Positions 908 through 60,601 of a stretch of DNA of 64,000 nt are shown here, in pieces. The position numbers and the translations under genes are program-made. A model generated the notes under the pieces. The model had not been told where the DNA came from. It searched no databases and saw nothing but the letters and a program-made list of their open reading frames with translations. This DNA is from Pontiella agarivorans (GTDB lineage Bacteria; Verrucomicrobiota; Kiritimatiellia; Kiritimatiellales; Pontiellaceae). The stretch lies in NCBI RefSeq assembly GCF_034531395.1, contig NZ_JARVCO010000002.1, positions 434,001-498,000 of the forward strand. The letters are read 5' to 3'. The first letter of the stretch is position 1. Every line of letters begins with the position of its first letter.

Positions 908-1525
908 ATGACTGTATATTTTATCCGACACGCACAGAGCGAAGCGAACCTGAAGGATATTCTGGCGTCGCGCCGGGATTTCCCTCTGACTGAAAAGGGT
1001 CGGGCCGATGCTCAGGCCATTGCTGCGGAGTTCCGGGAGATCGCCGAACTCGACCGGGTGGTCAGCTCGCCGTTGCTGCGTGCGCAGCAGACTGCGGAGC
1101 CGATCGCCAAAGCGTTCGGGCTGAAGGTTGAAACGGATGAGCGGATTATTGAACAGGAGCTGGGCGTTTTTTCCGGAATGACGTATGCGCAGCTGGATGA
1201 ACGGCCGGATTATGAGCACGAACGTTCCAAACGCTGGAACTGGGTGCCGGCGGGCGGCGGGGAGTCGTATGAAATGATCGCAGAACGGCTGGAGCCGTTT
1301 TTCCGGTCTCTGGAAAAAAAGCCGGAGGAGCGGGTGCTGTTTGTTACGCATGCCGTGACGATGCGGCTGATTAAAGCGCATCTTGAGCAGACTCTTCCGC
1401 AGTACCCGAATCCGATCGCCAAAAACGGTGAAATCTGGAAAACCGAATTTACAGGCCTGGGAAAGAAACACGAAGTGGAATCCATTTTCCTCGGCGGCAG
1501 TGCGGCCGCCGAATCACGGGCATAA
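908..1525 (+). CDS. Histidine phosphatase family protein (phosphoglycerate mutase-like)
   Basis: 205-residue member of the branch-2 histidine phosphatase/phosphoglycerate mutase superfamily. The catalytic RHAQSE motif is at residues 7-12, followed by the SSPLLRAQQTAEPIA block and, near residue 156, the VTHAVTMR block with the second catalytic His. Substrate cannot be told from sequence; small-molecule phosphate esters or sugar phosphates are likely given the neighbours. Start at 908 was chosen because translation upstream would run through repeat element A. It lies in the same orientation between fucU and the FGGY kinase, so it may serve the same sugar pathway. An exact TTCCA-N5-TGGAA palindrome lies inside it at 1225. 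Confidence 0.8.
   Translation: MTVYFIRHAQSEANLKDILASRRDFPLTEKGRADAQAIAAEFREIAELDRVVSSPLLRAQQTAEPIAKAFGLKVETDERIIEQELGVFSGMTYAQLDERPDYEHERSKRWNWVPAGGGESYEMIAERLEPFFRSLEKKPEERVLFVTHAVTMRLIKAHLEQTLPQYPNPIAKNGEIWKTEFTGLGKKHEVESIFLGGSAAAESRA
1225..1239. repeat. TTCCA-N5-TGGAA palindrome, copy 1
   Basis: Exact copy with centre AACGC, inside the histidine phosphatase gene (read as SKRWN). Confidence 0.8.
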
Positions 1526-1565
1526 GTATAAATGCACTATGCAACAGCAATCAGAGGGTTGAATT

Positions 1566-3077
1566 ATGGCTGAATATATTCTGAGTATCGACGTAGGCAC
1601 ATCAAGCACGAAGACCGTGCTCTTCGATACCGACTTTAATGTGGTGGCAACGGCCCGCAAAAAATATGACACGTCTTATCCGCATGCAGGTTGGGCTGAA
1701 CAGCCGGCGGAACAGTGGTGGGACGCGCTGAAAGAAAATACGACGAATATGCTGGCGGAAAGCCGGGTGAATGCCGCCGACATTATTGCGGTGGGGATTG
1801 ATGCCTTTTCAACCACGGTTGTTCCGGTGGATGACAATGGGAACGCTCTCCGGCCCGGGCTGATCTGGATGGACCGCCGTGCATCTGCTGAAGCGGAATG
1901 GATTCGTGAACATCTGGGGGAAGAACTCTGGGAAATTAACGGCAATGTTTCGGATGCAGGCAACCCGGCACCGAAGATTATGTGGATAAAAAAACATGAG
2001 CCGGAAGTGTATGATAAGACTCATATGTTCCTGCATGCCAACGGCTATCTGGTGCATCAGCTGACCGGGGAATATTCGATGGATATTTCCGAGGCGGGGC
2101 TTTCACAGTTCTGCAATACGAAGACCGGCGAATATTCCGATGTGCTGCTGGAAGGCTGCGGAATTGACCGGGCGAAACTTCCGCCGGTTTTCAACTGTAC
2201 TGATATCGTGGGAAAGGTGACCGCTGACGCCGCTGCGCTGACCGGACTTGCCGAAGGGACACCGGTAATTGCAGGATCAATGGATAACGTGGCCGCGGGG
2301 CTGGGCGCCGGCGTTTCCAAAGGCGGTGAAGTGTTTATTTCGGGTGGAACGGTAACCACGAACAACGTTTGCCTGGACGAACCGAAATATAACAAAAATC
2401 TGCACGTCTATCCGCACATTGTTCCGGGTACCTGGATCACCGCCGGCGGCGTCGACTTCGGCGGAGCGGTCATTCGCTGGTTTAATGAGGAAATTCTGGA
2501 GCTGGACGGCTATCAGGAACTGGATAAACTGATCGATACCTCCGTAACGGCGGAAAGTTCGGTGGTTTTTCTGCCGTATATGGTGGGGCAGCGCTGCCCG
2601 ATCTGGAACGATAATACAACCGGTGTGGTGATGGGGCTCAAGCCGCATACCAGCCGCCGCGATTTCACCCGTGCTGTAATTGAAGGCACCACGTATGGCT
2701 CGCGCCATGTGCTGAGCATTGCCGAGGAAGAAGGGGTGGAAATTAAAAATGTGAAGATTACCGGCGGGGTTGCCAATTCGGCCGTCTGGGTTCAGATCTT
2801 TTCCGATGTGCTCGGGCAGTCGATTGAAATCCCGGGCGCGGTGGATCTTCCGCCGCTGGGGGTGGCAATCGCTGCGGCCTATGGCGTGGGAGCCATTAAG
2901 AGCTTTGATGAAGCCATTGAAAAAATCCCGACCCGCGCGAGTTTCTCACCGGATGCGCATAATCATGCGTATTACAGCGAGATGTATACGGTGTTTCGTA
3001 ACCTCTACAGCAACCTCGTCAATGAATTCGATATGCTCGCTGAAATTGATAAGAAGTACGGAAAGAAACGCACATAA
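1566..3077 (+). CDS. FGGY-family carbohydrate kinase (xylulokinase-like)
   Basis: 503-residue cytoplasmic ATP-dependent sugar kinase. The N-terminal phosphate-binding stretch SIDVGTSSTKTVLFD (residues 7-21), the WMDRRA block, the catalytic Asp in AGSMDNVAAGLGAG (about residue 239) and the late TGGVANSAVW adenine-site block are all present, so it should be active. It is closest in feel to xylulokinases, but L-fuculose, D-tagatose or another ketose is possible. The next two genes encode a polyol-type dehydrogenase and a GatZ/KbaZ protein, making a ketose/polyol phosphate route plausible. Probably transcribed with the genes from fucP to the terminator at 5567. Confidence 0.85.
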   Translation: MAEYILSIDVGTSSTKTVLFDTDFNVVATARKKYDTSYPHAGWAEQPAEQWWDALKENTTNMLAESRVNAADIIAVGIDAFSTTVVPVDDNGNALRPGLIWMDRRASAEAEWIREHLGEELWEINGNVSDAGNPAPKIMWIKKHEPEVYDKTHMFLHANGYLVHQLTGEYSMDISEAGLSQFCNTKTGEYSDVLLEGCGIDRAKLPPVFNCTDIVGKVTADAAALTGLAEGTPVIAGSMDNVAAGLGAGVSKGGEVFISGGTVTTNNVCLDEPKYNKNLHVYPHIVPGTWITAGGVDFGGAVIRWFNEEILELDGYQELDKLIDTSVTAESSVVFLPYMVGQRCPIWNDNTTGVVMGLKPHTSRRDFTRAVIEGTTYGSRHVLSIAEEEGVEIKNVKITGGVANSAVWVQIFSDVLGQSIEIPGAVDLPPLGVAIAAAYGVGAIKSFDEAIEKIPTRASFSPDAHNHAYYSEMYTVFRNLYSNLVNEFDMLAEIDKKYGKKRT

Positions 3078-3116
3078 TTTAGATAAGTGGAAATCAACCT
3101 CTGGAGAGATAAAATC

Positions 3117-4151: not shown

Positions 4152-4226
4152 TACAGAGCAACTGTTCTGAATTAGACGATTTGAAATTTGATATCCGAGA
4201 TTTAAAATCTCCAAAGGAGTAAAAAA

Positions 4227-7933: not shown

Positions 7934-9412
7934 ATGGATACGTATTACAGACTGCAGAATGGAAGCGATGTGCGGGGAATTGCTCTGGAGGGCATTGAAG
8001 GCGAACCGGTAAATTTGACGCCTGAAATTGCGCGGACGATCGGTTTTGCTTTTGCAAAGTGGCTGGAGCAGAAACTGGATAAAACGGAATTGAAGGTTGC
8101 GGTAGGTAACGACTCACGCCTTTCGGCCGAAGCGATTAAAACCGGAACGTTCCAGGGATTGGAAAAAGCGGGCGTTACCTGTTTTGATAGCGGACTCTCT
8201 TCAACCCCGGCGATGTTTATGTCGACCGTTTTTGAAAATCATGGTTACGACGGATCCATCATGCTGACTGCGAGCCATCTGCCGTTCAACCGAAACGGCC
8301 TGAAATTTTTCACCCGCGAAGGCGGACTCGGCAAAGAAGATATTAAAGCGATTCTTACCATTGCCACGGAAACCGGCGCGTTCCAGCCGTTGGAAAATTC
8401 CCATGTTCGGAAAATTGATCTGATGGGCGATTATGCGGCGCATCTTGTGAACATTATCCGTGAGGGTGCCGGCCGTGAAAAGCCGTTGGACGGACTGAAT
8501 ATTGTGGTGGATGCCGGTAACGGCGCGGGCGGTTATTTTGTGGCGAATGTGTTGCAGCCGCTCGGGGCGGATACAACGGGAAGCCAGTTTCTTGATCCCG
8601 ATGGATCTTTTCCGAACCATATTCCGAATCCGGAAGACGGCGAGGCGATGGAAGCCATTATTTCTGCTGTGGAAAACAATAGCGCGGATTTCGGGATCAT
8701 TTTTGATACCGATGTGGACCGTGCGGGGGCCGTGGACAAAAACGGGAAACCGATCAATCGAAACCGTTTTATTGCATTGATGGCAACGATTGTACTCGAA
8801 GAGTATCCCGGATCGACGATTGTGACGGATTCTGTGACCTCCACCGGGCTGAAGTGGTGGATCGAAGACAACCTGGGCGGGGTTCATCACCGGTTTAAAC
8901 GCGGCTATAAAAATGTAATCAATGAAGCGATTCGTCTGAACGAAGCGGGTACACCGAGTTTTCTGGCGCTGGAAACCTCGGGCCATGGCGCATTAAAGGA
9001 AAACTATTTTCTGGATGACGGCGCGTACCAGATTGCCAAAATCCTGATCAAGATCGCGAAGCTGAAGGCGGCAGGCGAGGGCACCGTGGATGAGCTGATT
9101 GCCGAACTGCCGGAACCGGCGGAAGCGATTGAGTTTCGCCCACGGATTACGGTGGATGAGTTTTCGGCCTATGCGGATGAGGTGTTGGAAGCCTTTTCCG
9201 CTTTTGTTGAAGAACAGGAGGGGTGGTCGCTGACGCCGAATAATTTTGAGGGAGTGCATGTCACCACTCCAAACGGTTGGATTCTTGTGCGCAAGTCGTT
9301 GCACGATCCGCAGATTCCGATCAACATCGAAAGTGATGTCGTTGGCGGGACGAAACCGCTGAAAGCGGCTGTACTGGAGTGTCTGTCGACTTTCGAGGGC
9401 CTGCAGATCTGA
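7934..9412 (+). CDS. Phosphomannomutase/phosphoglucomutase (alpha-D-phosphohexomutase)
   Basis: 492-residue enzyme that converts hexose-1-phosphates and hexose-6-phosphates. The phosphoserine loop is TASHLPFNRNG (Ser near residue 114), the metal loop is DTDVDRAG (about 257) and the sugar-binding loop is LETSGHGA. All active-site elements are present. A GGGGAAAAGAG site precedes the ATG. It would link glucose- or mannose-1-phosphate from glycan breakdown with glycolysis or with nucleotide-sugar synthesis; Man versus Glc preference cannot be judged. Two exact TTCCA-N5-TGGAA palindromes lie in it, both read as FQxLE. Confidence 0.9.
   Translation: MDTYYRLQNGSDVRGIALEGIEGEPVNLTPEIARTIGFAFAKWLEQKLDKTELKVAVGNDSRLSAEAIKTGTFQGLEKAGVTCFDSGLSSTPAMFMSTVFENHGYDGSIMLTASHLPFNRNGLKFFTREGGLGKEDIKAILTIATETGAFQPLENSHVRKIDLMGDYAAHLVNIIREGAGREKPLDGLNIVVDAGNGAGGYFVANVLQPLGADTTGSQFLDPDGSFPNHIPNPEDGEAMEAIISAVENNSADFGIIFDTDVDRAGAVDKNGKPINRNRFIALMATIVLEEYPGSTIVTDSVTSTGLKWWIEDNLGGVHHRFKRGYKNVINEAIRLNEAGTPSFLALETSGHGALKENYFLDDGAYQIAKILIKIAKLKAAGEGTVDELIAELPEPAEAIEFRPRITVDEFSAYADEVLEAFSAFVEEQEGWSLTPNNFEGVHVTTPNGWILVRKSLHDPQIPINIESDVVGGTKPLKAAVLECLSTFEGLQI
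8150..8164. repeat. TTCCA-N5-TGGAA palindrome, copy 2
   Basis: Exact copy, centre GGGAT, in the phosphohexomutase gene; read in frame as FQGLE (residues 73-77). Confidence 0.8.
8381..8395. repeat. TTCCA-N5-TGGAA palindrome, copy 3
   Basis: Exact copy, centre GCCGT, in the phosphohexomutase gene; read in frame as FQPLE (residues 150-154). Confidence 0.8.
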
Positions 9413-13148: not shown

Positions 13149-14573
13149 TTACAGGTTAACGCCGGTTCCCTGCATATTTGATTTGTTGCCCCAAATGATC
13201 TGCCAGGGATCGTTGGTCTCAATCTGGAAGGCCTGAATCTTTTTCTTCATGGTTTCCAGTTGATTTGCGTATGCGGGATCATCGGCAAGGTTCCGGCTTT
13301 CTTCAGGATCGCTTTTGAGGTCGTAGAGCTCGAACTCGGGCCGGAAGAGATAGTCCTGCACCTTGCGGTGCCCGAAGTATTCTCCTTTATTCCGGTATAC
13401 ACTCTGCCAGGTGGATGCCGCCCAGAGGTCGGATGCAAACGGGTATTTCAGACCGTAGGCGATATTCCAGATCAGCTTCATGTTGTCTTCGCGAATAACG
13501 CGCATGGGATAATACATGGTTAATTCGTGGAAATTGTGTGCGGCATAAACTGTGTTCCAGGATTTGGAATTTTTCTTTCCAAGGATGGGAAGAAATGAGC
13601 GGCCGTGAAAGCGGCTCTTTTCTACCGTCACACCGGCGAAGTCGAGAATGGTCGGAGTGAGATCCACCCAGGAAATCATGCTGCGGTTTTTCAGGCCCTG
13701 GAAATCGGTGCGCGGATCTTTAACAATGCAGGGGAGTTTGATGCCGGGTTCATAAACCGTGGTTTTTGCCCCCGGGAAGGCAATGCCGTTGTCGGAAATA
13801 TAGATGATAACGGTATTGTCGGTTTTTCCTGAATCATCAAGAATTTTCAGCAGTTTGCCGAGACCCTGATCAATCCGGGAAATGGACTGATAATACTGGG
13901 CCAGTTCTTCGCGGCATTCCTGAGTATCGGGAAGAAATTCGGGAACGATCACGTCTTTAGGATCATACTTCACGATGGTTTCGCCGGGATAAGGTTCGCT
14001 TTTATTACCGAATGAGTTCGGTGCATTCCAGGGATCGGGAGTGAAGGGATCGCCGCGATGGGGGTCGTCCGGGCAGAAGTAGAGAAAGAACGGTTTATCC
14101 TGCCGGATGGTCGGGGTAACGGTTTCCGCCATTTCGATTGTGGATCGGGGATCGCATTTATAGCGGACATCAAATTTATATACCGATTCCGGGGCTACGT
14201 GATATTTGCCGATCTGGGCGGTATGATAGCCCGCTTCGGAGAGCATGACAGGCAGCGATTTTACGGTGTCGAATGTGCTGAAGTGGTGATAATCGTGCAC
14301 ATGGCCGTAGGAGCCGGTGGCATGGCCGAATTTGCCGGTCAGGATGACGGAGCGGCTGGCGGCGCAGCTGGCGCTGGTGCAGTAGGCCCGGGTGAAACGA
14401 ACGCCATCGGCGGCGAGCTGATCCATATTCGGCGTTTTAATGACGGGGTTGCCGTAGCACCCCAGCGCATCCAGTCCATGATCGTCGGAAACGAAAAGAA
14501 TGATATTCGGTTTTTCGGCCATGGTCTGAATACATGTAATCAGAACAATCACCACAAGATGTAATGCTTTCAT
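13149..14573 (-). CDS. Sulfatase 1 (Cys-type, exported)
   Basis: 474 residues; signal peptide (about 1-18), then PNIILFVSDDHGLDALGC with the metal-binding Asp pair, and the formylglycine motif CAASR in SASCAASRSVILTGK (CxAxR type, where Cys is converted to formylglycine). Later YISDNGIAFPGAK supplies the second Asp-Asn metal site. It is nearest in style to N-sulfoglucosamine sulfohydrolase-like sulfatases (S1 family). It removes sulfate esters or N-sulfate from a glycan outside the cytoplasm. It lies 147 bp downstream of the esterase gene of the same operon. An exact palindrome copy is at 13555. Confidence 0.92.
   Translation of the reverse strand: MKALHLVVIVLITCIQTMAEKPNIILFVSDDHGLDALGCYGNPVIKTPNMDQLAADGVRFTRAYCTSASCAASRSVILTGKFGHATGSYGHVHDYHHFSTFDTVKSLPVMLSEAGYHTAQIGKYHVAPESVYKFDVRYKCDPRSTIEMAETVTPTIRQDKPFFLYFCPDDPHRGDPFTPDPWNAPNSFGNKSEPYPGETIVKYDPKDVIVPEFLPDTQECREELAQYYQSISRIDQGLGKLLKILDDSGKTDNTVIIYISDNGIAFPGAKTTVYEPGIKLPCIVKDPRTDFQGLKNRSMISWVDLTPTILDFAGVTVEKSRFHGRSFLPILGKKNSKSWNTVYAAHNFHELTMYYPMRVIREDNMKLIWNIAYGLKYPFASDLWAASTWQSVYRNKGEYFGHRKVQDYLFRPEFELYDLKSDPEESRNLADDPAYANQLETMKKKIQAFQIETNDPWQIIWGNKSNMQGTGVNL
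13555..13569. repeat. TTCCA-N5-TGGAA palindrome, copy 4
   Basis: Exact copy, centre GGATT on +, in the sulfatase 1 gene (read as SKSWN). Confidence 0.8.
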
Positions 14574-20267: not shown

Positions 20268-20810
20268 TTATTTCCCGATGAGTTTGAGAAATTCGTTTCG
20301 GGTGGATTGGTCGCGGCGGAAGCTGCCGAGCATGGCGGAAGTGACCATGCAGGAGTTTTGCTTTTCGACGCCGCGCATCATCATACAAAGGTGCTGGGCT
20401 TCGATCACGACGCCGACGCCTTCGGGGGTGACGGTGTTCATGAGGGTGGTGGCTACCTGATTGGTGAGCCGCTCCTGAATCTGAAGACGACGGGCAAAAT
20501 GATCGACGATCCGGGCCAGTTTGCTGACGCCGAGGACCTTACCTTCGGGGATGTAGCCGATATGGCATTTTCCGAAGAAGGGAAGCATGTGATGTTCGCA
20601 GAGGCTGTAGAGCTCGATGTCTTTGACGATGATCATGTGGTTGTCTTCAACGGTGAAAATGGCGTCGTTGATGACATCCTCAAGTTTCTGGTGATAGCCT
20701 TTTGTGAGAAATTCCATGGCTTTTGCTGCCCGTTTTGGGGTGTCGAGCAGGCCTTCGCGGGAGGGGTCTTCGCCTACGCTGCTTAGAATCTCTTGATATA
20801 AATGCTCCAT
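20268..20810 (-). CDS. folE: GTP cyclohydrolase I
   Basis: 180 residues. Converts GTP to dihydroneopterin triphosphate, the first step of tetrahydrofolate synthesis. Zinc and catalytic residues are visible in [12 protein letters not shown] (about residues 72-83) and in the HLCMMMRG block; the [10 protein letters not shown] and QERLT blocks are canonical. The start at 20810 was chosen over an in-frame extension to 20894 because a GGAG lies upstream at correct distance and homologues start there. It belongs with folD and the glycine cleavage genes in folate/one-carbon metabolism. It is 90 bp downstream of cstA. Confidence 0.93.
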
Positions 20811-20861: not shown

Positions 20862-20876
20862 TTCCAGAGATTGGAA
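20862..20876. repeat. TTCCA-N5-TGGAA palindrome, copy 5
   Basis: Exact copy, centre GAGAT, in the cstA-folE gap; flanked on one side by AAAA. Confidence 0.8.
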
Positions 20877-20900: not shown

Positions 20901-22592
20901 CTAATTTCGTCTGAGTTTAGCGAGTACCACCGCGCCTTCGATAATCATCCAGGTTTGCAGAACGGTAATGATGCTGCCGATAACGAAAAGAAGCCATTTT
21001 TCGTCGGCATAATAGGAGAACAAATTGAGGCTCATACCCCAGACCGTCATGGCAATCATGAAGACCATAGGCAGCGCGGTGAAAATGATGTTGATTTTTT
21101 TGCGTGCGAGCCAGACGGTAATAACCAGCAGGGCCAGACCGCCGAGCAGCTGATTGACCGCCCCGAAAAGCGGCCATAAAGCAAGGGCCCCTTTTCCGCC
21201 GCCGCTCGAAAAGGCCAGAGCGAGAGCTGTTGCAACAGCAATGAATGTGGCGGGGTGTGTTTTTCCAAGGGCTGGAACTTTCACCGTTTCAGCGATTTCT
21301 GAAATAATGTATCGCTGGAGACGTGTGGCGGTGTCGAGTGTAGTGGCCGCGAAGGAGGCGACAAATACACCCATGAGAGTCAGGACAACGCCTTTCGGCA
21401 GGCCGATACCGGAGATCATGTTGGCGGCTCCGGTCACGAAAGCTTCAATTTTTGCGCCGAGTCCGCCGGCTGCGGCCCAGCTGGAATACTGTTGGTTGAA
21501 GGCGGCGACGCCGGTATAGGTGGTGCCGTCTTTTTCCAGACCGAGTCCGATGCCGGCGGCGCAGGCGATGATGACGATGATGGCCAGCATGCCTTCGAGC
21601 AGCATGCCGCCATAGCTGATGGGCTGGGCGCTGGTTTCAGCATCGCACTGTTTGGAAGAGGTGCCGGAGGAGACCAGACAGTGGAACCCGGAAATGGCTC
21701 CACAGGCTACCGTGATGAAAAGGATGGGGAAGAGATTCGGCGCGCCTGCGGCGTCGAGGTTGGTGGCCGGAGCGATCATGGGCGGGTGGGTGACGATGAT
21801 GCCCAGGAGCAGCAGGGCCATGGCGATGCAGAGCTGGAAGGCATTGATGTAGTCGCGCGGCTGAAGGAGCACGGTGACTGGAAGGGTGGAGGCGACGTAG
21901 GCGTAAATCAGCAGGGCAATCACCCAGATGCCGACGCTGCTCATGCCGAAGGCTTCGGGCATATTGACCGGAACATATGCACCGATAATGATGGTGGCAT
22001 ACATCAGGATGGTGGCAATGATACCATAGGTGATGTGCGATTTCCCTTTTTTATACACCATGAATCCGAGCCAGATGGCGATGGGCAGCTGCAGCCATAC
22101 CGGAATGACCGATTCCGGGAAAATGGCAAAAACGGCGGCAATCACCACGCCGAAAATCGCAATCACCAGCCAAAGGGCAAAAAAGATGATGAGCATGAAA
22201 AGCGATTTTACACGTGGATTGATCACGGTTCCGGCAATGTCACCGATGGTCCGGCCCTGATGACGCAGGGAAATCATCATGGAGCCGAAGTCATGAACTG
22301 CTCCCATAAAGATGGAGCCGACCAGGATCCAGATCAGTGCAGGGGCCCATCCCCAGATGACGGCGATGGCGGGGCCGACGATGGGCCCGGTGCCGGCGAT
22401 AGAGGTGAAGTGGTGTCCGAAAAGTACGGTTTTGTCGGTGGCCACAAAGTCAATGCCGTCGTGATGCGTTTCACTTGGGCATTTGGCACCGGGATCGACT
22501 TTGAAAATTTTACGACCAAGAAACCGCCCGTAAGTGTGATAGGCGATAATGTACAGTACAGCGGCAGATGCGGCAATAATCAATGAATTCAT
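20901..22592 (-). CDS. cstA: Carbon starvation protein CstA (pyruvate/peptide transporter)
   Basis: 563 residues, with a hydrophobic profile of many membrane helices throughout. The N-terminal YIIAYHTYGRFLGRKIFKVD, the HHFTSIAGTGPIVGPAIAVIWGW block and SGTSSKQCDAETSAQPISYGGMLLEG-type features (about 305-330) are diagnostic of CstA, an inner-membrane transporter for pyruvate and possibly peptides. The gene lies 56 bp downstream of the kinase array on the same strand, so it may be part of that transcription unit. E. coli homologues are controlled by two-component systems, which fits. An exact palindrome copy is at 21263. Confidence 0.95.
   Translation of the reverse strand: MNSLIIAASAAVLYIIAYHTYGRFLGRKIFKVDPGAKCPSETHHDGIDFVATDKTVLFGHHFTSIAGTGPIVGPAIAVIWGWAPALIWILVGSIFMGAVHDFGSMMISLRHQGRTIGDIAGTVINPRVKSLFMLIIFFALWLVIAIFGVVIAAVFAIFPESVIPVWLQLPIAIWLGFMVYKKGKSHITYGIIATILMYATIIIGAYVPVNMPEAFGMSSVGIWVIALLIYAYVASTLPVTVLLQPRDYINAFQLCIAMALLLLGIIVTHPPMIAPATNLDAAGAPNLFPILFITVACGAISGFHCLVSSGTSSKQCDAETSAQPISYGGMLLEGMLAIIVIIACAAGIGLGLEKDGTTYTGVAAFNQQYSSWAAAGGLGAKIEAFVTGAANMISGIGLPKGVVLTLMGVFVASFAATTLDTATRLQRYIISEIAETVKVPALGKTHPATFIAVATALALAFSSGGGKGALALWPLFGAVNQLLGGLALLVITVWLARKKINIIFTALPMVFMIAMTVWGMSLNLFSYYADEKWLLFVIGSIITVLQTWMIIEGAVVLAKLRRN
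21263..21277. repeat. TTCCA-N5-TGGAA palindrome, copy 6
   Basis: Exact copy, centre AGGGC on +, inside cstA. Confidence 0.8.
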
Positions 22593-30532: not shown

Positions 30533-30547
30533 TTCCAGTCTTTGGAA
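30533..30547. repeat. TTCCA-N5-TGGAA palindrome, copy 7
   Basis: Exact copy, centre GTCTT, five bases after a terminator T-run. A one-mismatch copy (TTCCG) lies at 30155-30169 in the gap before the small peptide gene. Confidence 0.8.
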
Positions 30548-39664: not shown

Positions 39665-39679
39665 TTCCAGCGGTTGGAA
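39665..39679. repeat. TTCCA-N5-TGGAA palindrome, copy 8
   Basis: Exact copy, centre GCGGT, in the gap next to a terminator; extended context TTTTCCAGCGGTTGGAAA. Confidence 0.85.
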
Positions 39680-41186: not shown

Positions 41187-42035
41187 ATGAATACCGGCCC
41201 TGTTATAGCCAGAGACGTCCTGATGCGCGGCATCCGGGCGTTTTTTTATGCACGTGATTACGCCGAGGTGGAAACGCCGATCCGGCTGAAGATTCCCTGT
41301 ATGGAACTCCATATTGATGCGGAGCCTTCCGGGGATCATTTTCTGCGCACTTCACCCGAAATTTTTCATAAACAGCTGCTCGCTGCGGGACATCAGCGTA
41401 TTTTTGAGATCGGCAAATGTTTTCGGCACGGCGAGCGGGGTCCGTTGCATCATCCGGAATACACCATGCTGGAATGGTATCAGACGGGTGCGGATTACAT
41501 GGATATTCTGGAGGAAACCAAACAGTTGATTGCCTGCGTCTGGAAAGGGGTTTCCAGGGATTGGAAAATTCTGCCTGTTTCAGAGGCATTTCAGGAATTT
41601 GCGGGCTGGGATCCGGCGGGGAATTATGATGAAAACCGCTTTGATATCGATCTGGTGGATAAGGTCGAACCCGCCATCCGAAAAATCGGCGGGCCGGTGG
41701 TGCTCAAAGACTATCCGGTTGAAGCAGCCGCTCTTTCGCGTAAAAAAAACGGCAATCCTTTGGTGGCGGAACGGTGGGAGCTTTATATTGACGGAGTGGA
41801 AATAGCGAATGCCTATTCCGAGCTGACCGATCCCGTTGAACAGCGTATGCGGTTCGAAGAATGCGCGGCGCAGCGTCGTGCTCTCGGGAAAACGGTGTAT
41901 CCCATCGATGAGGCCTTTCTTCAGGCCCTGGAACATATGCCGCCGGCCGGCGGTGTTGCACTGGGGGTGGACCGTTTGCTGATGTTGCTCCTTGGAGCGT
42001 CTACGCTGGACGCCGTACTTCCGTTCCGGAATTAG
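41187..42035 (+). CDS. epmA: EF-P lysine ligase EpmA (PoxA/GenX, class II LysRS-like)
   Basis: 282 residues. A truncated class II lysyl-tRNA synthetase core without the tRNA-binding domain. Motif 2 is FRHGERGPLHHPEYTMLEWY (about 77-96), and motif 3 is GGVALGVDRLLMLLLG (about 254-269). It attaches lysine or beta-lysine to EF-P. It begins on the base after the efp stop codon. The partner lysine 2,3-aminomutase EpmB is not in the window. Contains an exact palindrome copy at 41552. Confidence 0.93.
   Translation: MNTGPVIARDVLMRGIRAFFYARDYAEVETPIRLKIPCMELHIDAEPSGDHFLRTSPEIFHKQLLAAGHQRIFEIGKCFRHGERGPLHHPEYTMLEWYQTGADYMDILEETKQLIACVWKGVSRDWKILPVSEAFQEFAGWDPAGNYDENRFDIDLVDKVEPAIRKIGGPVVLKDYPVEAAALSRKKNGNPLVAERWELYIDGVEIANAYSELTDPVEQRMRFEECAAQRRALGKTVYPIDEAFLQALEHMPPAGGVALGVDRLLMLLLGASTLDAVLPFRN
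41552..41566. repeat. TTCCA-N5-TGGAA palindrome, copy 9
   Basis: Exact copy, centre GGGAT, in epmA (read as SRDWK). Confidence 0.8.
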
Positions 42036-43830: not shown

Positions 43831-45120
43831 ATGGATCCGGTGGATCAGGCGGCTGAGCTGATTCAAAAAGGCGGCCATGTTCACTTGATCGGCATCGGGG
43901 GCATCGGTATGGCCGGTATTGCCTGGCTGCTGAAAGAACGCGGCTTCTGCGTATCCGGCTGCGACCTGCAACAGAATCGGCAGACCGATTGGCTCTCGGA
44001 AAACGGGATCAACATCGCATCCGATCATACCGAGTCCCACCTCAGCGATGCCGTCGACTGGGTGGTGCGCTCAACCGCCGTTTCGGATGCGCACCCCGAA
44101 ATCAGGGCCGCGCTGAAAAAAGGTCTTCCGGTTTCCCGCCGGGGCGAAGTCCTGCCGGCACTCATGCGCGATCGTACCTGCATTGCTGTCAGCGGCACAC
44201 ACGGTAAAACCACCACCACCGCCATGATTGCGCAGATTCTCAGTTGCGGCTTTTTTGTCGGCGGGGAAATGGCCGGGTTCGATGGTGCCGTCGCGCGCGA
44301 CGGCGAAATTATGGTGGTCGAAGCCGATGAATCCGACGGCACCGTTGCCGGGTATTCACCCGACTTCGCCATCATCACCAATATCGAATACGACCATATG
44401 GAGCACCACGACTCCGAGGCCGCATTCATCGGCTGTTTTGAACAACTGATCCGCCAGACCAAAAAGACGGTATTTTATTGTTCCGCAGATCCCATCGCCG
44501 CGCGCATCTGTTCCGCACATTCCAAATGCGTGCCGTACGGGCTGATCGCGCATCTGAATCTTCCAATTCCCGGAATTCACAACCAATGGAACGCCTCTGC
44601 CGCGCATGCAGTTTCCAGAGCCTGGAAAAACGACAGCGAAATTTTCCAGGCATTGGAACGCATCCGGCCCGTTGCCCGTCGCTTTGAAACCGTCTGCAAT
44701 CAGGATGGAATCCGGATCGTTTCCGACTATGCGCACCATCCGACCGAAATTGCCGCCCTCATCCAGACGGCGCAGGAACTGAAACCAAAGCGTCTGCTGG
44801 CTGTTTTTCAGCCGCACCGCTACACCCGGACCTTGGCGCTCGGAGAAGATTTTCCGCCCAGTTTCCAAGGTCTGGAAAAGCTCTGGCTCGTCCCCGTCTA
44901 TGCCGCCTCCGAACATCCGCTGCCCGGCGGCACCTCCGAAGATCTTCTCAACCGCTTCCCCGAAGACTGGAAAAATCGCCTCCATTATTTCCCAGCACTG
45001 GAAGCTGCCTGGGAGGAGGCCCGAAAAGAACTTCGCGAAGGGGACCTGCTGCTGATCATTGGAGCAGGGGATGTCGAGCAAATCGCCGATTGGGCAAAAA
45101 AGACGGGTGTGGATTCTTAA
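43831..45120 (+). CDS. murC: UDP-N-acetylmuramate--L-alanine ligase
   Basis: 429 residues. ATP-dependent addition of the first amino acid to UDP-MurNAc. N-terminal nucleotide-sugar domain (VHLIGIGGIGMAGIA), ATP loop SGTHGKTTTTAMIA (about 118-131), VEADESDGT and the DYAHHPTEIAAL block of the C-terminal domain. Start at 43831 lies one base after the murG stop. Three exact TTCCA-N5-TGGAA palindromes fall in its last third. The cell-wall cluster stops here; the next genes belong to a restriction island on the other strand. Confidence 0.95.
   Translation: MDPVDQAAELIQKGGHVHLIGIGGIGMAGIAWLLKERGFCVSGCDLQQNRQTDWLSENGINIASDHTESHLSDAVDWVVRSTAVSDAHPEIRAALKKGLPVSRRGEVLPALMRDRTCIAVSGTHGKTTTTAMIAQILSCGFFVGGEMAGFDGAVARDGEIMVVEADESDGTVAGYSPDFAIITNIEYDHMEHHDSEAAFIGCFEQLIRQTKKTVFYCSADPIAARICSAHSKCVPYGLIAHLNLPIPGIHNQWNASAAHAVSRAWKNDSEIFQALERIRPVARRFETVCNQDGIRIVSDYAHHPTEIAALIQTAQELKPKRLLAVFQPHRYTRTLALGEDFPPSFQGLEKLWLVPVYAASEHPLPGGTSEDLLNRFPEDWKNRLHYFPALEAAWEEARKELREGDLLLIIGAGDVEQIADWAKKTGVDS
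44613..44627. repeat. TTCCA-N5-TGGAA palindrome, copy 10
   Basis: Exact copy, centre GAGCC, in murC (read as SRAWK); 17 bp before copy 11. Confidence 0.8.
44644..44658. repeat. TTCCA-N5-TGGAA palindrome, copy 11
   Basis: Exact copy, centre GGCAT, in murC; in frame as FQALE (residues 272-276). Confidence 0.8.
44863..44877. repeat. TTCCA-N5-TGGAA palindrome, copy 12
   Basis: Exact copy, centre AGGTC, in murC; in frame as FQGLE (residues 345-349). Confidence 0.8.
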
Positions 45121-45224: not shown

Positions 45225-45495
45225 TCACCACAGAGGAACACGGAGGAAGGCCTCTGTGTTCTCCGAGTCCTCTAGCGGAGCGGGTGGTAAAAAGATACCT
45301 GTATGTTTTGGCAAGTGGTATAAATCGAATCCTTCAGCCGTGACTTGGCCAGCATGCAGCAAATCATCACAAAGAAGCTCAACGGCTGATCGAAGCTTAG
45401 TCGGGCAGTTGGGTGCAAAACTCTTTAGCCGATCGATAGGGCTCCGACATGAGCGGCGAAACGGCCTGCACCAATTCATCGTCGGTCATCTTCAT
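45225..45495 (-). pseudogene. Frameshifted small gene coupled to hsdR
   Basis: The ATG at 45495 shares its A with the hsdR stop (TGATG), so this was the next gene of the restriction operon. It reads 32 codons (MKMTDDELVQAVS to KEFCTQLPD) and hits TAA at 45399-45397. Skipping one T there gives an open frame KLRSAVELLCDDLLHAGQVT... running to 45225, and the join reads naturally as protein. I infer a single-base insertion in a gene of about 90 codons; programmed frameshifting or an assembly error are alternatives. The product is not a family I recognise. Its 3' end runs into repeat element C. Confidence 0.55.
45227..45288. repeat. Intergenic inverted-repeat hairpin, element C (imperfect)
   Basis: ACCACAGAGGAACACGGAGG on the left and CCTCTGTGTTCTCCGAG...GGTGGT on the right form imperfect inverted arms, with ACCAC at the outer left edge as in elements A, B and D. 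It sits just past murC at the end of the restriction island. Confidence 0.6.
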
Positions 45496-48473
45496 CAATA
45501 ATATTCTTTGATGTATTCATACGCCCGCTCGAAGAGGGCCTGGTCCGTGTGGAGCTTGTATTTCAGCAGGGCTTTGCGGAGGGATTTCTGGACTTCGCGT
45601 TCGCCTTGGTTGGTGTTTTGCCACCCGGGAAAGCGGACGATGCGCACGATGGCGTCGATGTCCGTGACAATGCGCTCGACCACGGCGGGCGTCTGGTCGG
45701 TCTTGATTTCGAGAAACAGCTCGGTCAGGGCCGCTTTCGGGCTCTTGTCCTGCAGCGCGGCTTCGAGCTCTTTTTCGGCCTGCACAGTTTCCTTGGCCAG
45801 CTTGCAGAGTTCCTTCACAAATTCGATGGAAGAGATCAGCCCGCGCTCGGCCTTATCGCGCAGCTCCTCCAGCCGCTCGCTGAGCGATTTAAATTTGGGA
45901 TCGCCCGCATGTTTCTTAAAGCGCTTGATGAGGGTCTTTTCGAGCTGCTTCACCTTTTTCGGGTCGGGATGGTTGAAGATGTCCTCGATCACATCGGCAT
46001 CAAGCACAAATTCTTCGAGGGTATGCAGCTCGCCGACATGCAGGTTTTCGTGGATCAGCCGGGTCGTCTGCGCGCCGAGCGTCAGCCACAGCAGTTTGCC
46101 GATGTTGTCCGACGCCGGTTTAACCGATTCATAGACCTGTGCCAGCCAGCGGTAGTCTTCGTTGTAAAGATTCAGGATGTTGTCCGGCGACAGCGATTCC
46201 CAGATTTTGCTTAAAAATTTAAAGTTGCGCGCAAAGGCATCCTTCTTCTTATCGTCGCTGATGGCCTCCTGCGCGGCTTCCAGGCCCTCAAATCCTTCGA
46301 GCGTGCGGTCCACGCCCTCAAAATGGGCCAGTGTCTCTTTCATGGCTTTCGGCAGTTTGTCGCGCAGTTCGGAAAGGTTGGTGATCACCTTCCGGATACT
46401 CTCCTCGTCAAACTCCAGCGCCTTGGCGGCATCATCGAACACCCCGAAATAATCCACAATGCGCCCGAAGCTCTTTTGCGGATACAGCCGGTTTGTGCGG
46501 CAGATGGCCTGCAGCAGGGTATGATCCTTCAGCGATTTATCCAGATACATCGTCTGCAGGATCGGCGCGTCAAATCCGGTCAGCAGCTTGGCCGTCACGA
46601 TAATAAACTTCAGCTCGGAGGCAGCATCGTTGAATTCATCCACGATCTTTTCCTGCTGACTCTTATCCACCGCCCACTTTTGCTTAAACTCCAGCGCATC
46701 GTTGGCCGAGGTGGAAATCACCACCCGACTCGCCTCGGTCGGGAAATGTTTATCCAGCTCCTCTTTATACTGCACGCAGGCAAAACGGTCCGGCGTCACA
46801 ATCATCGCCTTCAGTCCGTGCGGCGCCACTTTTTCGGTAAAATGGACCGCAATATCCTTCACAATCCGCGTCACCCGCTCCGGCGCTTTCAAAAAGGCCG
46901 ACATCTTGGCCGACTTCCGGTTCAGCGCATCCGCCTCCTCATCCGTCAGCGCCGCTTCTTCTTTAAATTCAGCAAACGCTTTATCCAGCGCCTCCGTATC
47001 CACATGCACATCTACCAGCCGCGGCTCAAAATGCAGCGGCAGGGTCGCGCCGTCGCGGATCGAATCGTGGAACGTGTAGCGGCTCATATAGCCGCCGGCA
47101 TCCTCTTCCGCGCCAAAGGCCCAGAACGTATTCTTATCCGCCTTATTCACCGGGGTCCCGGTCAGCCCGAACAGAAAGGCGTTCGGCAGCGCGGCGCGCA
47201 TCTGACGTCCCAGATCGCCTTCCTGCGTGCGGTGCGCCTCATCCACCAGCACAATAATGTTATCGCGCGTATTCATATTGGGCCGCGCATCGCGGAACTT
47301 ATGAATCATCGAAATAATGATCTTGCGCGTATCGCGCTCCAGCATCAGCTGGAGCTCCTTAATGCTCTCGGTGCACTCCACATTGGCCACATCCGCCGCA
47401 TTAAACGTCCCGCTGATCTGCGTATCCAGATCCGTGCGGTCTACCAGCACAATCACCGTCGGACTCTTCAGGCTGGCGGCACGGCGCAGCTTCTGCGCGG
47501 CGAATACCATCAGCAGCGATTTTCCCGACCCCTGGAAATGCCAGATCAACCCCTTCTTAATCCGGCCGTCGATCACCCGCTCCACAATCTGGTTCGCGCC
47601 TTCCAACTGTTGGAAACGCGGGATCACCTTGATGCGCTGCTTTTTCTTATTCGTCGTGAACAGCGAAAAATTGCGCAGGATATCGAGCAGGCGCGCCGGA
47701 CTGAGCAGGTCGGTGAGTTCGGCACCCACTTCGGCCAGCCCCAGCGATTTGGCAATCGCGCATTCATCGTCCAGCCGCCACGGCGCCCAGAACTCCAGCG
47801 GACAGCGAATCGCGCCGTAAAACAGCTCCTTGCCCTCCGTCGCGAACGACAGAATGTTCGGCACAAACAACTGCGGAACCGCATTTTCATAGATGTTATG
47901 AATCTCGTGCGCGCCGTCCAGCCAGCTGACCGACGGGCGGATCGGCGTTTTGGCCTCGCCGACCACCACCGGCATCCCGTTCAGCAGCAGCACCACATCC
48001 GGAATCTTGGTTTCGCGATGATGTATCCGAAACTGATTGGTGATGACATAGGTGTTCTGCGACAGATCCTCAAAATCGACCAACCGCACCGGAACATGCC
48101 GGTTATTCTCGCCAAACGGCATCGTCTTTTCGCCGCTCAACCATTGGAAAAATTCCTCGTTGGCTTTGACGAGTCCGACCTGATTGACCGAAATCAAAAT
48201 CGCGCGCAGTTTATAGATCACCTCATCGGCCAACTCCGGCCGTTCGGCAATTTCCGGATTGAGCCGAATCAACGCCGCTTTGACCTCCGACTCCACCAGC
48301 ACCTCATTCACACCGCGTTGCAACTGCTCGGCCGACTGATAACGCCATTTTGCGCCATAGGCCTGCTCCGCCGCTTCCGCGCCCGACCACTCCGGCACAT
48401 CGCGGTTCAAATCCATGCCCGACAACTGATGGACAATGTAATGCTCGACGCTGTTGAGTTCGGTAAAGGCCAT
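45495..48473 (-). CDS. hsdR: Type I restriction enzyme HsdR (motor and nuclease subunit)
   Basis: 992 residues. The N-terminal PD-(D/E)XK nuclease has PDVVLLLNGMPVVVGEAKTP (about 174-193). The helicase motor has Walker A in GSGKSLLMVFAAQ (about 316) and DEAH in LVDEAHRTQEGDLG (about 412), then RecA-like domain 2 with TAKLLTGFDAP and QAICRTNR. The C-terminal helical part binds the methylase. It translocates and cuts unmodified DNA with HsdM and HsdS. It follows hsdS by 2 bp. Exact palindrome copy at 47601. Confidence 0.95.
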   Translation of the reverse strand: MAFTELNSVEHYIVHQLSGMDLNRDVPEWSGAEAAEQAYGAKWRYQSAEQLQRGVNEVLVESEVKAALIRLNPEIAERPELADEVIYKLRAILISVNQVGLVKANEEFFQWLSGEKTMPFGENNRHVPVRLVDFEDLSQNTYVITNQFRIHHRETKIPDVVLLLNGMPVVVGEAKTPIRPSVSWLDGAHEIHNIYENAVPQLFVPNILSFATEGKELFYGAIRCPLEFWAPWRLDDECAIAKSLGLAEVGAELTDLLSPARLLDILRNFSLFTTNKKKQRIKVIPRFQQLEGANQIVERVIDGRIKKGLIWHFQGSGKSLLMVFAAQKLRRAASLKSPTVIVLVDRTDLDTQISGTFNAADVANVECTESIKELQLMLERDTRKIIISMIHKFRDARPNMNTRDNIIVLVDEAHRTQEGDLGRQMRAALPNAFLFGLTGTPVNKADKNTFWAFGAEEDAGGYMSRYTFHDSIRDGATLPLHFEPRLVDVHVDTEALDKAFAEFKEEAALTDEEADALNRKSAKMSAFLKAPERVTRIVKDIAVHFTEKVAPHGLKAMIVTPDRFACVQYKEELDKHFPTEASRVVISTSANDALEFKQKWAVDKSQQEKIVDEFNDAASELKFIIVTAKLLTGFDAPILQTMYLDKSLKDHTLLQAICRTNRLYPQKSFGRIVDYFGVFDDAAKALEFDEESIRKVITNLSELRDKLPKAMKETLAHFEGVDRTLEGFEGLEAAQEAISDDKKKDAFARNFKFLSKIWESLSPDNILNLYNEDYRWLAQVYESVKPASDNIGKLLWLTLGAQTTRLIHENLHVGELHTLEEFVLDADVIEDIFNHPDPKKVKQLEKTLIKRFKKHAGDPKFKSLSERLEELRDKAERGLISSIEFVKELCKLAKETVQAEKELEAALQDKSPKAALTELFLEIKTDQTPAVVERIVTDIDAIVRIVRFPGWQNTNQGEREVQKSLRKALLKYKLHTDQALFERAYEYIKEYY
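47601..47615. repeat. TTCCA-N5-TGGAA palindrome, copy 13
   Basis: Exact copy, centre ACTGT, in hsdR; in frame as FQQLE (residues 287-291). Confidence 0.8.
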
Positions 48474-54428: not shown

Positions 54429-55403
54429 ATGGAAGAAGTGAAAACCTCAACTGCGCTGATCTGGAGTGATCGCTGGCGTCTGGGGGCTTTGTCGAAGACG
54501 GAGATGCTCAATATCGGTTTTGCGTCGGTACTCATCGGTATGCTGTTTGTGCTGTTTCATCTGTTCGGCAATACGGTGGAGAATGTGGGGAGCAAGTCGG
54601 CGTTTGTCTGGATGGTTGCCCGCTGGGGGGATAAAATTTCGTTCGGTGCGGACTATTCGCACGGTTATCTGATCCCGTTTGTGAGCTTGGGTGTGGTCTG
54701 GTATAAGCGCGCAGATTTTTTTGCGGCCCAAAAAAAGAGCAGTTACTGGGGGCTTGTTGTGGTGATCGGCTCTCTTTTTATGCACTGGCTGGGCGCCAAA
54801 ATGCAGCAGCCGCGTTTGTCGCTGATGGCGCTGATCGGACTGATCTGGGGGATTCCGTTTTATTTCTACGGGTGGGAAGTGGCGAAGCTGCTGATCTTTC
54901 CGTGTTCGTATTTGATTTTCTGTGTGCCGCTTAACTTTCTGGATGCCCTTTCGGGACCGTTGCAGCGGGTTGCGACGACGATGGGGTACAACCTGCTGAC
55001 GGATATGGGCATTCAGGTGCAGCGGGTCGGTACACAGCTGATTTCGGATTATTTCCAGCTGAACGTGGAGGCGGCATGTTCGGGATTGCGATCATTGCTG
55101 GCCATGACGGCGCTGACGGCGGTTTATGCGTATTTCACCCAGAAAACCTTTGTGAAAAAATGGCTGTTGTTTCTTTGCTGTATTCCGATTGCGGTGGCGG
55201 GGAATATCGGGCGGATTATTTCGATTGCGCTGGTATCGATCACCACGGGGCAGGAATTCGGCGCCGGTCTGCACCATGACTGGTCGGGGTATGTTCTCTT
55301 TACGGTTGCCATCAGTCTGATGGTCGGTTTCGGAAAATTGCTGGATGTAAATTATAAGGAACTTTTTGTGTCATGGAAAAAAGCCTATTTAAGCCGTTCC
55401 TGA
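54429..55403 (+). CDS. Exosortase (transpeptidase-like membrane enzyme)
   Basis: 324 residues. Inner-membrane protein with about eight hydrophobic helices, of the exosortase/archaeosortase family, which cleaves C-terminal sorting tags (such as PEP-CTERM) from exported proteins. The active-site Cys is in AACSGLRSLLAMTAL (about residue 216), the Arg in AGNIGRIISIALVS (about 260) and the His in HHDWSGYVLF. Start at 54429 has GGGAG upstream. No PEP-CTERM substrate is recognisable in the window. Overlaps the EpsI-like gene by 31 bp. Confidence 0.88.
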   Translation: MEEVKTSTALIWSDRWRLGALSKTEMLNIGFASVLIGMLFVLFHLFGNTVENVGSKSAFVWMVARWGDKISFGADYSHGYLIPFVSLGVVWYKRADFFAAQKKSSYWGLVVVIGSLFMHWLGAKMQQPRLSLMALIGLIWGIPFYFYGWEVAKLLIFPCSYLIFCVPLNFLDALSGPLQRVATTMGYNLLTDMGIQVQRVGTQLISDYFQLNVEAACSGLRSLLAMTALTAVYAYFTQKTFVKKWLLFLCCIPIAVAGNIGRIISIALVSITTGQEFGAGLHHDWSGYVLFTVAISLMVGFGKLLDVNYKELFVSWKKAYLSRS

Positions 55404-56167
55404 TCGTTGTTATTCTGATGACGGTGTCGGTGTTTGCGCTCGCCTTTACGGTGGGGGTGGAACTTGACTTTGTTCCGGGGGTGAAGATGGAGCTTCCGGA
55501 AGAGGTGCAGAACTGGCATGGCAACCAGCTTAAATTCTGCCATAACCCGGAAGAGTGCGCCAAGGACTACCGCGATGCATCGTTTTATGTCAGCGAGCTT
55601 GAAATTCCGGATATCTGCCCGGTCTGCGGCTCCCGGCTGTATAATATGGCCCGGGCTGAGAAGGAACAGCTTCCTGAGGATACGGAATTTGTGAAATCGG
55701 CCTATACCAACGAGGCGGGAACCCGCCTTTTTACATCGATCGTACTTTCTGGAACGGCGCGCGATTCTATCCACCGGCCGCAGCGCTGTCTTAAAGGGCA
55801 GGGCAATACACTCGACGGGGAGTATGATCTCGAGGTGCCGATGGAGGGGCGCGATCCGCTGAAGGTGCGCGTCATTAAAACCTCCCGGACCTTCCGGACC
55901 GAAGAAGGGGAGCAGCCATACTATTCGTTTTATGCCTACTGGTTTGTGGGGCAGGACCGGGAAACACCGTCGCACTATTCCCGCATGTTCTGGCTGGCCT
56001 GGGACCGCGTGGTCCGTTCGACCGCCAACCGTTGGGCCTATATTGCCGTGCAGGGCGAACGCGAGGCGGAGGGGACCGAATATGAAGGGGAGATCATCAG
56101 TTTTGTTCAGGAGATCTATCCGCAGATTCTGACTGAGACCATGCGAAAAAAGGCGTATGGCGACTAA
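55373..56167 (+). CDS. Exosortase-associated EpsI-like protein (DUF3485)
   Basis: 264 residues. One N-terminal membrane helix (about 8-30), then an extracytoplasmic domain with the EpsI signature SIHRPQRCLKGQGN (about 137-150). It has two extra Cys-containing stretches (FCHNPEECAK and CPVCGSRLYN, the latter zinc-ribbon-like), which I do not expect in typical EpsI. Overlap with the exosortase gene shows coupling. EpsI proteins accompany exosortases in exopolysaccharide/sorting loci; the biochemical role is not settled. Confidence 0.8.
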   Translation: MEKSLFKPFLIVVILMTVSVFALAFTVGVELDFVPGVKMELPEEVQNWHGNQLKFCHNPEECAKDYRDASFYVSELEIPDICPVCGSRLYNMARAEKEQLPEDTEFVKSAYTNEAGTRLFTSIVLSGTARDSIHRPQRCLKGQGNTLDGEYDLEVPMEGRDPLKVRVIKTSRTFRTEEGEQPYYSFYAYWFVGQDRETPSHYSRMFWLAWDRVVRSTANRWAYIAVQGEREAEGTEYEGEIISFVQEIYPQILTETMRKKAYGD

Positions 56168-56169
56168 TC

Positions 56170-56184
56170 TTCCACGCCTTGGAA
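56170..56184. repeat. TTCCA-N5-TGGAA palindrome, copy 14
   Basis: Exact copy, centre CGCCT, in the gap between the EpsI stop and its terminator. Confidence 0.8.
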
Positions 56185-58015: not shown

Positions 58016-58023
58016 TTGGGTTT

Positions 58024-58454: not shown

Positions 58455-58473
58455 GAATGAGGAAGAAATAATC

Positions 58474-59898: not shown

Positions 59899-59900
59899 CT

Positions 59901-59960
59901 ATCCACAGATTTCACGGATGACCTGGATTTAGAATCCTCTAATCTGGGTAATCTGTGGAT
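59901..59960. repeat. Intergenic inverted-repeat hairpin, element E
   Basis: ATCCACAGATT (59901-59911) and AATCTGTGGAT (59950-59960) are perfect 11-bp inverted repeats. It fills the gap between the gatB stop and the Nth-like stop; its last base is part of the stop codon of the Nth-like gene. A different sequence family from elements A-D, but the same architecture. Confidence 0.75.
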
Positions 59961-60601
59961 TATAGAAATTTTTTGAGTGGGCAGTCTTTGCAGTTGGGTT
60001 TGCGGGCGGTGCAGTAATCTTTGCAGATCCGGACGATCAGGGCGTGGTATTCGTTAAAGAGTTGAACGTCTTCCGGCAGGTTGTCGGTGAAGAGTTTGGC
60101 AACGTCGTCGTATTTTGCTTTATCATCGATCCAACTGTGGCGTCGGCAGATTCGTTTAGTGTAGGCATCGACCACAAAGGCGGGCTGACGGGCGGCGTAG
60201 AGAATGATGCAGTCGGCGGTTTCCTTGCCAATGCCTTTCCAGGACAGCAGCTCGGTCCGAAGTGCAGCGCCTTCGAGGTTGAAAAGCTTATCGAGCGAGC
60301 CGTCGAATTTGTTCCGAAGGTTGGAAATCAGTTCCTGCAGGTAGTCCGCTTTCTGATTAAAGAAGCCGGCGGGCCGAATCCATTCCATCAGCTGTTCGCG
60401 CGGCGCATTTTCCAGCGATTGGAAATTGAGGGCCTGGTTTTTCCGAAGGTTGGAAAGGGCTTTCTCGACATTGGTCCAGGCGGTATTCTGGGTCAGAATG
60501 GCCCCGACGATCATTTCGAACCGGGATTCCGCCGGCCACCAGTGCTGTTTGCCGTAATGGGAAAACAGGGTGTTGTAGACGTCATAAATCGGCGGGGTCA
60601 T
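59960..60601 (-). CDS. Endonuclease III-family DNA glycosylase, MagIII-like (no catalytic Lys)
   Basis: 213 residues; HhH-GPD fold with LLSWKGIGKETADCIILYAA (about 118-137) and Asp145 in AFVVDAYTKRI. In endonuclease III the residue before the Thr-Ala of the hairpin is the lyase Lys; here it is Glu127, so it is probably a monofunctional glycosylase. This pattern occurs in MagIII-type 3-methyladenine glycosylases. Of the four 4Fe-4S Cys, C197-x6-C204-x2-C207 are present, but the protein ends at Leu213 where the last Cys should be, at the edge of repeat element E. Overlaps the upstream gene by 20 bp. Confidence 0.82.
   Translation of the reverse strand: MTPPIYDVYNTLFSHYGKQHWWPAESRFEMIVGAILTQNTAWTNVEKALSNLRKNQALNFQSLENAPREQLMEWIRPAGFFNQKADYLQELISNLRNKFDGSLDKLFNLEGAALRTELLSWKGIGKETADCIILYAARQPAFVVDAYTKRICRRHSWIDDKAKYDDVAKLFTDNLPEDVQLFNEYHALIVRICKDYCTARKPNCKDCPLKKFL
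60410..60424. repeat. TTCCA-N5-TGGAA palindrome, copy 15
   Basis: Exact copy, centre GCGAT, in the Nth-like gene; read as FQSLE (residues 60-64). Two one-mismatch copies (TTCCG) lie at 60312 and 60441 in the same gene. Confidence 0.85.

Follow-up and report, generated by a model that had tools for sequence, protein, structure and literature searches.

The question raised by a 64,000-nucleotide stretch of the Pontiella agarivorans genome (contig NZ_JARVCO010000002.1, positions 434,001 to 498,000; hereafter the window) is why one gapped palindrome, TTCCA-N5-TGGAA, recurs so often in it. A sequence-only reading of the window had listed 15 exact copies and offered three explanations, namely a highly iterated palindrome, a DNA uptake sequence or a chromosome-organising site. 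Our analysis revealed a dyad-symmetric DNA site that is spread genome-wide, specific to one class, helically phased and variable between lineages, with selection on its arms only. Among the three proposals, chromosome organisation fits best because the copies are helically phased; a palindrome resembling HIP1 (highly iterated palindrome 1) fits the abundance and placement only, and uptake fits weakly. The helical phasing of neighbouring copies is a new point of analysis that was absent from the earlier reading, as were the dialects of the spacer and the restriction of the site to a single class, and the best explanation overall is that the copies are probably the sites of a class-specific, dimeric, cooperative nucleoid-type protein.

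All 15 copies were found at the coordinates first reported, with a purine as the first spacer base in 14 and a pyrimidine as the last in 15, as described. The accompanying list of one-mismatch copies was right at six of its seven positions, the entry 1311 being properly 1301; the window holds 21 such copies in all. Dinucleotide shuffles averaged 0.11 exact copies and never gave more than 2, and gaps of 0-4 and 6-14 bp between the same arms gave no copy in the window, so that among short gaps the excess is confined to 5 bp. The window is part of contig C2 of a 4.44 Mb Pontiellaceae genome (G000), which carries 1,146 copies against 5 of the reversed, non-complemented control AAGGTYNSNRACCTT. On 858 kb of C2 there were 212 copies, against 0.8 on average and at most 3 for all other same-shape palindromes made by permuting the five arm bases. 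The genes of C2 contained 154 copies against 19.4 (maximum 28) after synonymous-codon shuffling within each gene, and codon bias is therefore no explanation. Thus neither a count near expectation nor one for which codon or dinucleotide bias suffices, the two outcomes named beforehand as fatal to the proposal, was found in the whole-genome, permuted-arm and synonymous-shuffle counts. The palindrome stands far above composition, genome-wide and both within and between genes, as expected of a HIP1-type repeat, and its description as a genome-wide iterated palindrome that also lies inside core genes, not an ordinary operator, was correct. Eleven of the 15 window copies are genic and four intergenic. 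They are listed below with several one-mismatch copies (strand is entered as '.' for every one).

1225..1239, exact copy TTCCAAACGCTGGAA, in the histidine-phosphatase-family gene 908-1525
8150..8164, exact copy TTCCAGGGATTGGAA, in the phosphoglucomutase/phosphomannomutase gene 7934-9412
8381..8395, exact copy TTCCAGCCGTTGGAA, in the same gene 7934-9412, 231 bp (22 turns of 10.5 bp) after 8150
13555..13569, exact copy TTCCAGGATTTGGAA, in a sulfatase gene, 22 bp (2 turns) ahead of the one-mismatch copy 13577
13577..13591, one-mismatch copy TTCCAAGGATgGGAA, the phased partner of 13555
20862..20876, exact copy TTCCAGAGATTGGAA, between the called genes 20307-20786 and 20901-22592
21263..21277, exact copy TTCCAAGGGCTGGAA, in cstA
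30533..30547, exact copy TTCCAGTCTTTGGAA, intergenic
39665..39679, exact copy TTCCAGCGGTTGGAA, intergenic, adjoining a DeoC-family gene
41552..41566, exact copy TTCCAGGGATTGGAA, in the class II tRNA-synthetase-like gene 41187-42035
44561..44575, one-mismatch copy TTCCAATTCCcGGAA, in a Mur-ligase gene, 52 bp (5 turns) ahead of 44613
44613..44627, exact copy TTCCAGAGCCTGGAA, in the Mur-ligase gene, its column common to 7 of 29 orthologues
44644..44658, exact copy TTCCAGGCATTGGAA, in that same gene, 31 bp (3 turns) after 44613, its column common to 5 orthologues
44863..44877, exact copy TTCCAAGGTCTGGAA, in FQGLE codons of the Mur-ligase gene, its column common to 13 of 29 orthologues
47601..47615, exact copy TTCCAACTGTTGGAA, in the type I restriction HsdR-like gene 45495-48473
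56170..56184, exact copy TTCCACGCCTTGGAA, immediately 3' of the stop codon of gene 55373-56167, the sole window copy whose spacer opens with a pyrimidine
60312..60326, one-mismatch copy TTCCgAAGGTTGGAA, in the HhH-GPD gene
60410..60424, exact copy TTCCAGCGATTGGAA, in the HhH-GPD DNA-repair gene 59960-60601
60441..60455, one-mismatch copy TTCCgAAGGTTGGAA, 31 bp (3 turns) after 60410

The consensus drawn from the 212 C2 copies is tTTCCA-R-N-S-N-Y-TGGAAa, with R in 94%, a central C or G in 90% and the flanking T in 54% of them, and where a copy has one mismatch, this is most often a G for the A of the fifth arm position (85 of 238). The spacer ends combine as G..T (60), A..T (55), A..C (41) and G..C (31), that is, the purine and the pyrimidine vary independently, which argues for two half-sites read by a dimer rather than a base-paired stem; the site thus looks like a protein-binding dyad and not an RNA hairpin.

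Neighbouring copies were helically phased. Class-wide, in 40 genomes, 5,059 pairs had a start distance of 30-32 bp and 22 a distance of 35-37 bp, half a turn off, the random expectation being 0.2-4.6 pairs per genome for each 3-bp distance window (11 genomes computed). With the two closest families, f1 and f2, left out, the corresponding numbers were 4,764 and 0, and the 30-32 bp class made up 99.6% of the close pairs in G006 and 98% in G035. In f1, f2 and named relatives, the spacings of pairs 15-135 bp apart fitted a period of 10.5 bp best (R=0.64). Leaving out the 30-32 bp class, the period signal was still R=0.53 (G071 alone, R=0.78), with a weak signal for f1 alone (R 0.26, p 0.014), and in-phase spacings reach ~12 turns. 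Intergenic arrays of 2-7 copies, 31-32 (sometimes 22) bp apart, were present in G006, G035, G015, G040, G066 and G104, and the DNA between the phased copies was mostly unrelated. In the window, one-mismatch copies included, the phased pairs are 13555/13577 (22 bp), 44561/44613 (52 bp), 44613/44644 (31 bp) and 60410/60441 (31 bp). Sites lined up in this way along a single helical face are characteristic of proteins that contact one another on DNA.

Several of the few 35-37 bp pairs of the window's genus, in G114, G120 and G108, share the coding context S-N-D-W-K-N-G-G-Y-T-E-L-P, perhaps that of sulfatases, and these out-of-phase pairs may reflect an amplified gene family. Phased pairs were also present on 14 viral stretches. 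The phage-like viral contigs L145 (3034-3164), L146 (2786-2946) and L155 (650-767) carry 4-6 phased copies ~550-600 bp ahead of terminase-like or late-like genes, and phages seem to use the host site; no shared DNA-binding gene was noticed near the phased viral copies.

For the placement of copies, genes were called with a simple purpose-written gene caller. On C2, 156 of the 212 copies were genic, with a density of 0.20/kb in genes versus 0.69/kb between them; the densities in G006 were 0.05/kb and 3.7/kb respectively. Over six genomes, convergent gaps carried 2.35 copies/kb, tandem gaps 1.26, divergent gaps 1.24 and genes 0.16, indicating that promoters are not favoured, and copies were frequent within ~20 bp of stop codons. 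Genic C2 copies occupied all three reading frames (71, 33 and 50). The motif enriches FQxLE in the C2 proteome; almost every one of the 71 copies in frame 0 encodes F-Q/H-x-L-E. A plot of density along the replichores had been proposed with the sequence-only reading: copies were uniformly dense along C2 (Kolmogorov–Smirnov p=0.20) and moderately over-dispersed over 20 windows of the complete genome G071 (p=0.0003), with no clear replichore trend. Near 750 kb of C2 the GC skew drops from ~+0.14 to -0.02, likely at a replichore boundary or an assembly feature.

Conservation was measured over reciprocal-best orthologues, with same-frame windows within the same genes as controls; the orthologue pairs are not independent, most of them coming from one gene neighbourhood in related species. 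In motif-rich relatives the ten arm bases were identical at 0.87 versus 0.70 in the control windows, and the spacer bases at 0.59 versus 0.68, showing that the spacer is not conserved, and 288 sites were fully conserved against 30 expected. In motif-poor relatives the excess was nearly gone (19 against 10.7). A codon alignment of 29 Mur-ligase orthologues showed that the motif arises at fixed columns by point substitution, often changing the amino acid, and no inserted motif unit was seen in it. The site at 44561, one mismatch away in the window, is exact in the relatives L049, L050 and L052, and the copy at 41552 is retained in two of three close motif-rich relatives, the third having 9 of the 10 bases.

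The nearest named orthologues of one window gene belong to the Pontiellaceae and other Kiritimatiellales. Among 146 genomes of the little-studied class Kiritimatiellia the motif ranged from 0 to 3,209 copies each, and from 7 to 2,297 per genome within the window's genus alone; 190 genomes from other classes of the phylum held 0-9 copies of the strict motif, which is background. Some genomes carried the arms with almost no R-N-S-N-Y spacer (TTCCA-N5-TGGAA versus strict motif, 302/0 in G047, 271/2 in G076, 141/2 in G024 and 183/1 in G026). In sampled stretches of G047, G024 and G076 the spacers were mostly of the Y...R type, for example TTCCATTGAGTGGAA, whereas G036, from the same genus as G024, had the R...Y type in 110 of 111 copies; thus the spacer dialect changes within one genus. 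In f1 and f2 the sparser genomes also kept less closely to the spacer consensus (Spearman 0.89, n=12), which is the pattern that erosion would give; no such trend was found across all families. In the motif-poor sisters G061 and G081 (200 kb each) there was no clear one-mismatch excess. A replacement motif was rejected for the same samples, which held no comparable gapped palindrome (4-6 bp arms, 0-20 bp gaps), and so was a core regulon, all residual copies examined in these two genomes lying within reading frames of unrelated genes. The G061 sample had compact 8-mer palindromes (CGCCGGCG, ATCCGGAT, TGCCGGCA and CCTGCAGG) at ~3-4-fold over-representation. In G187 (same phylum, family f47, genus g112, 2.4 Mb) the reversed control AAGGTYNSNRACCTT occurred 52 times versus at most 3 times in every other genome searched, perhaps as another iterated palindrome.

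From these observations we infer a single protein, a dimeric state and a nucleoid role. A dimeric, cooperatively oligomerising protein very probably exists, and we favour, with moderate confidence, a nucleoid or chromosome-organising factor as the predicted protein; as would suit such a factor, the sites are many, are not confined to promoters and are arranged for cooperative binding. Each TTCCA-RNSNY-TGGAA would be a putative binding site of a homodimer found only in Kiritimatiellia, and dimers on neighbouring sites would touch where 2, 3, 4, 5 or more full helical turns separate the sites. The protein would build short phased nucleoprotein arrays between genes and occupy scattered single or paired sites within them, much as a sequence-specific, nucleoid-associated protein that organises the chromosome would do. 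Selection for binding would be weak per site but genome-wide, with point mutation making sites where codons nearly permit them (FQxLE, SxxWK and xPxxGK frames), and in a lineage that lost the protein or its role the sites would erode within a genus.

Several observations weigh against such a protein. The window's genus is phased much more weakly than the other families, with 16 pairs at 30-32 bp versus 0.9 expected for 1,146 copies. The sites are wholly lost in some sister species, and the role is therefore not essential across the class. No clear bias towards origin or terminus was seen on C2 or G071, so that only abundance, placement and phasing point to a chromosome-level role. Finally, the binding protein was not found among the ComEC, Y1 transposase, Lrp/AsnC and HTH_8 candidates profiled. 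Of these, a Fis-like (HTH_8) nucleoid protein fits the window's genus: stand-alone HTH_8 frames of 122-135 aa were present in the rich genomes G000, G108, G114 and G120 and absent from the poor genomes G061, G081 and G126. However, the rich genomes G006, G035, G038 and G050 had no such frame, and this reader was rejected because the rich family f8 has none. A 70-aa stand-alone HTH_8 protein of G000 (L243, 1468-1680, minus strand), encoded downstream of a PAS histidine kinase, belongs to the rich-only HTH_8 set of the window's genus.

Among the alternatives, we consider it unlikely that the palindrome is a DNA uptake (self-recognition) sequence, bound by a competence receptor and spread by biased recombination of imported DNA, as are the DNA uptake sequences (DUS) and uptake signal sequences (USS) of Neisseriaceae and Pasteurellaceae. 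The density of ~1 per 2-4 kb in rich genomes, the wholesale gain and loss within a genus and the erosion at low density are what molecular drive would produce, as are the dialects and the copies in core genes, and the Kiritimatiellia site resembles DUS and USS in density, dialects, spread by substitution and presence in core genes. However, DUS and USS are not palindromic and we know of no helical phasing in them, whereas the present site has both properties, and phasing is unexpected if a single site per fragment is enough. ComEC had a match in 139 of the 146 genomes, rich and poor alike (G061 and G081 included), and does not split the two groups. G096 (94% complete), which has no ComEC match, is sparser than its genus-mates G006 and G035 (58 versus 341 and 393 copies/Mb respectively), yet it keeps 418 copies, including 78 phased pairs.

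It is equally doubtful that the sites are operators of an Lrp/AsnC (feast/famine) global regulator, with the single Lrp of the class as their reader. Lrp dimers bind inverted repeats of 13-17 bp, clustered at two or three helical turns centre-to-centre (PMC2995911), and a 15-bp inverted repeat at spacings of 21-22 and 31-32 bp agrees with this in length and spacing. A homologue was present in all 55 genomes with at least 40 copies, and all 23 genomes without one were motif-poor, a co-occurrence that is confounded by phylogeny. However, the motif-free genomes G061 and G081 keep the protein: in G081 its recognition helix is almost the same as in the rich sister G120, and that of G061 is closely similar. 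The gene adjoins an aminotransferase gene, like that of a local regulator, and its upstream DNA is not enriched in sites; among 40 mostly motif-rich genomes examined, just 3 had the motif within 250 bp upstream, and there is thus no sign of autoregulation. Furthermore, Lrp/AsnC sites are degenerate with an AT-rich centre, whereas the Kiritimatiellia site has exact arms, a G/C spacer centre and a phase that holds over many more turns, and shows no promoter bias. For Lrp as the reader, the architecture fits and the recognition-helix comparison does not.

A HIP1-like origin, in which the site would be the target of an orphan methyltransferase (the core CCANNNNNTGG has a shape known from restriction sites) and mismatch-repair bias would build up its copies, appears very improbable. 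HIP1 of cyanobacteria (GCGATCGC) is likewise an abundant palindrome, with hundreds to thousands of genic and intergenic copies; it varies between relatives, has alternates in some strains and tracks methyltransferases (PMC4390886). However, HIP1 is a compact methyltransferase-tied 8-mer with no reported phasing (the word 'spacing' is nowhere in PMC4390886), whereas the Kiritimatiellia site is a gapped dyad, and methylation or repair bias predicts neither the 10.5-bp phasing, nor the intergenic arrays of 2-7 sites, nor the R, S and Y constraint on the spacer.

RNA hairpins, acting as terminators or processing signals, would account for the copies just 3' of stop codons and in convergent gaps, but are hardly credible given that the non-pairing A..C ends are as common as independence predicts, that phasing is meaningless for RNA and that the copies of the window's genome are mostly genic. 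Mobile palindromes of the repetitive extragenic palindromic (REP) or bacterial interspersed mosaic element (BIME) type, moved by a REP-associated tyrosine transposase (RAYT, Y1), or another inserted repeat, share the abundant short palindromes in intergenic arrays, but we regard them as practically excluded and as refuted as a general explanation, because the Y1 profile does not follow the motif (no match in the rich G015, G034 and G046 or the motif-bearing G029; 17-21 matches in the poor G018, G062 and G092), sites arise by substitution at fixed codons without insertion, most C2 copies are genic and the inter-site DNA is mostly unrelated. In G011 (two contigs) the ComEC match (C1:1409676-1410500) contains three in-frame TAG codons and the Y1 match (C1:1893839-1894171) one, for which TAG recoding or read-through is possible.

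A further known system is that of the SegB sites of Sulfolobales, 13-bp palindromes with a central S that serve chromosome organisation and segregation at ~35-49 sites per genome; in S. acidocaldarius ~83% are intragenic and some peaks hold more than one site (PMC12284271). The Kiritimatiellia site is similarly an odd-length palindrome with a central S scattered over the chromosome, but it reaches thousands of copies, is phased, and shows dialects and wholesale loss. No description of the motif for Kiritimatiellia was found in the searchable literature, outside which most subscription journals lie, and 'palindrom' is nowhere in the Pontiella genome papers searched.

Most known highly repeated genomic signals, such as HIP1, DUS and Chi, are single oriented or compact words. 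A genome-wide palindrome kept in helical register to ~12 turns implies that assembly is cooperative at numerous loci. Such assembly is known at single promoters, and we know of no genome-wide code of that kind. Since sister species span 7-2,297 copies, the cost, the benefit and the reader of the code should be findable by comparing genomes and by pull-down experiments on cultured Pontiellaceae. Tentatively, and as a serious possibility only, the sites may belong to a previously undescribed bacterial chromatin system, in which a class-specific protein would coat the chromosome via thousands of exact, phased palindromes, rewriting the codons of core genes, switching spacer dialects from genus to genus and being discarded wholesale by sister species. 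If this coating-protein reading is true, the protein would have reshaped intergenic DNA and genes alike.

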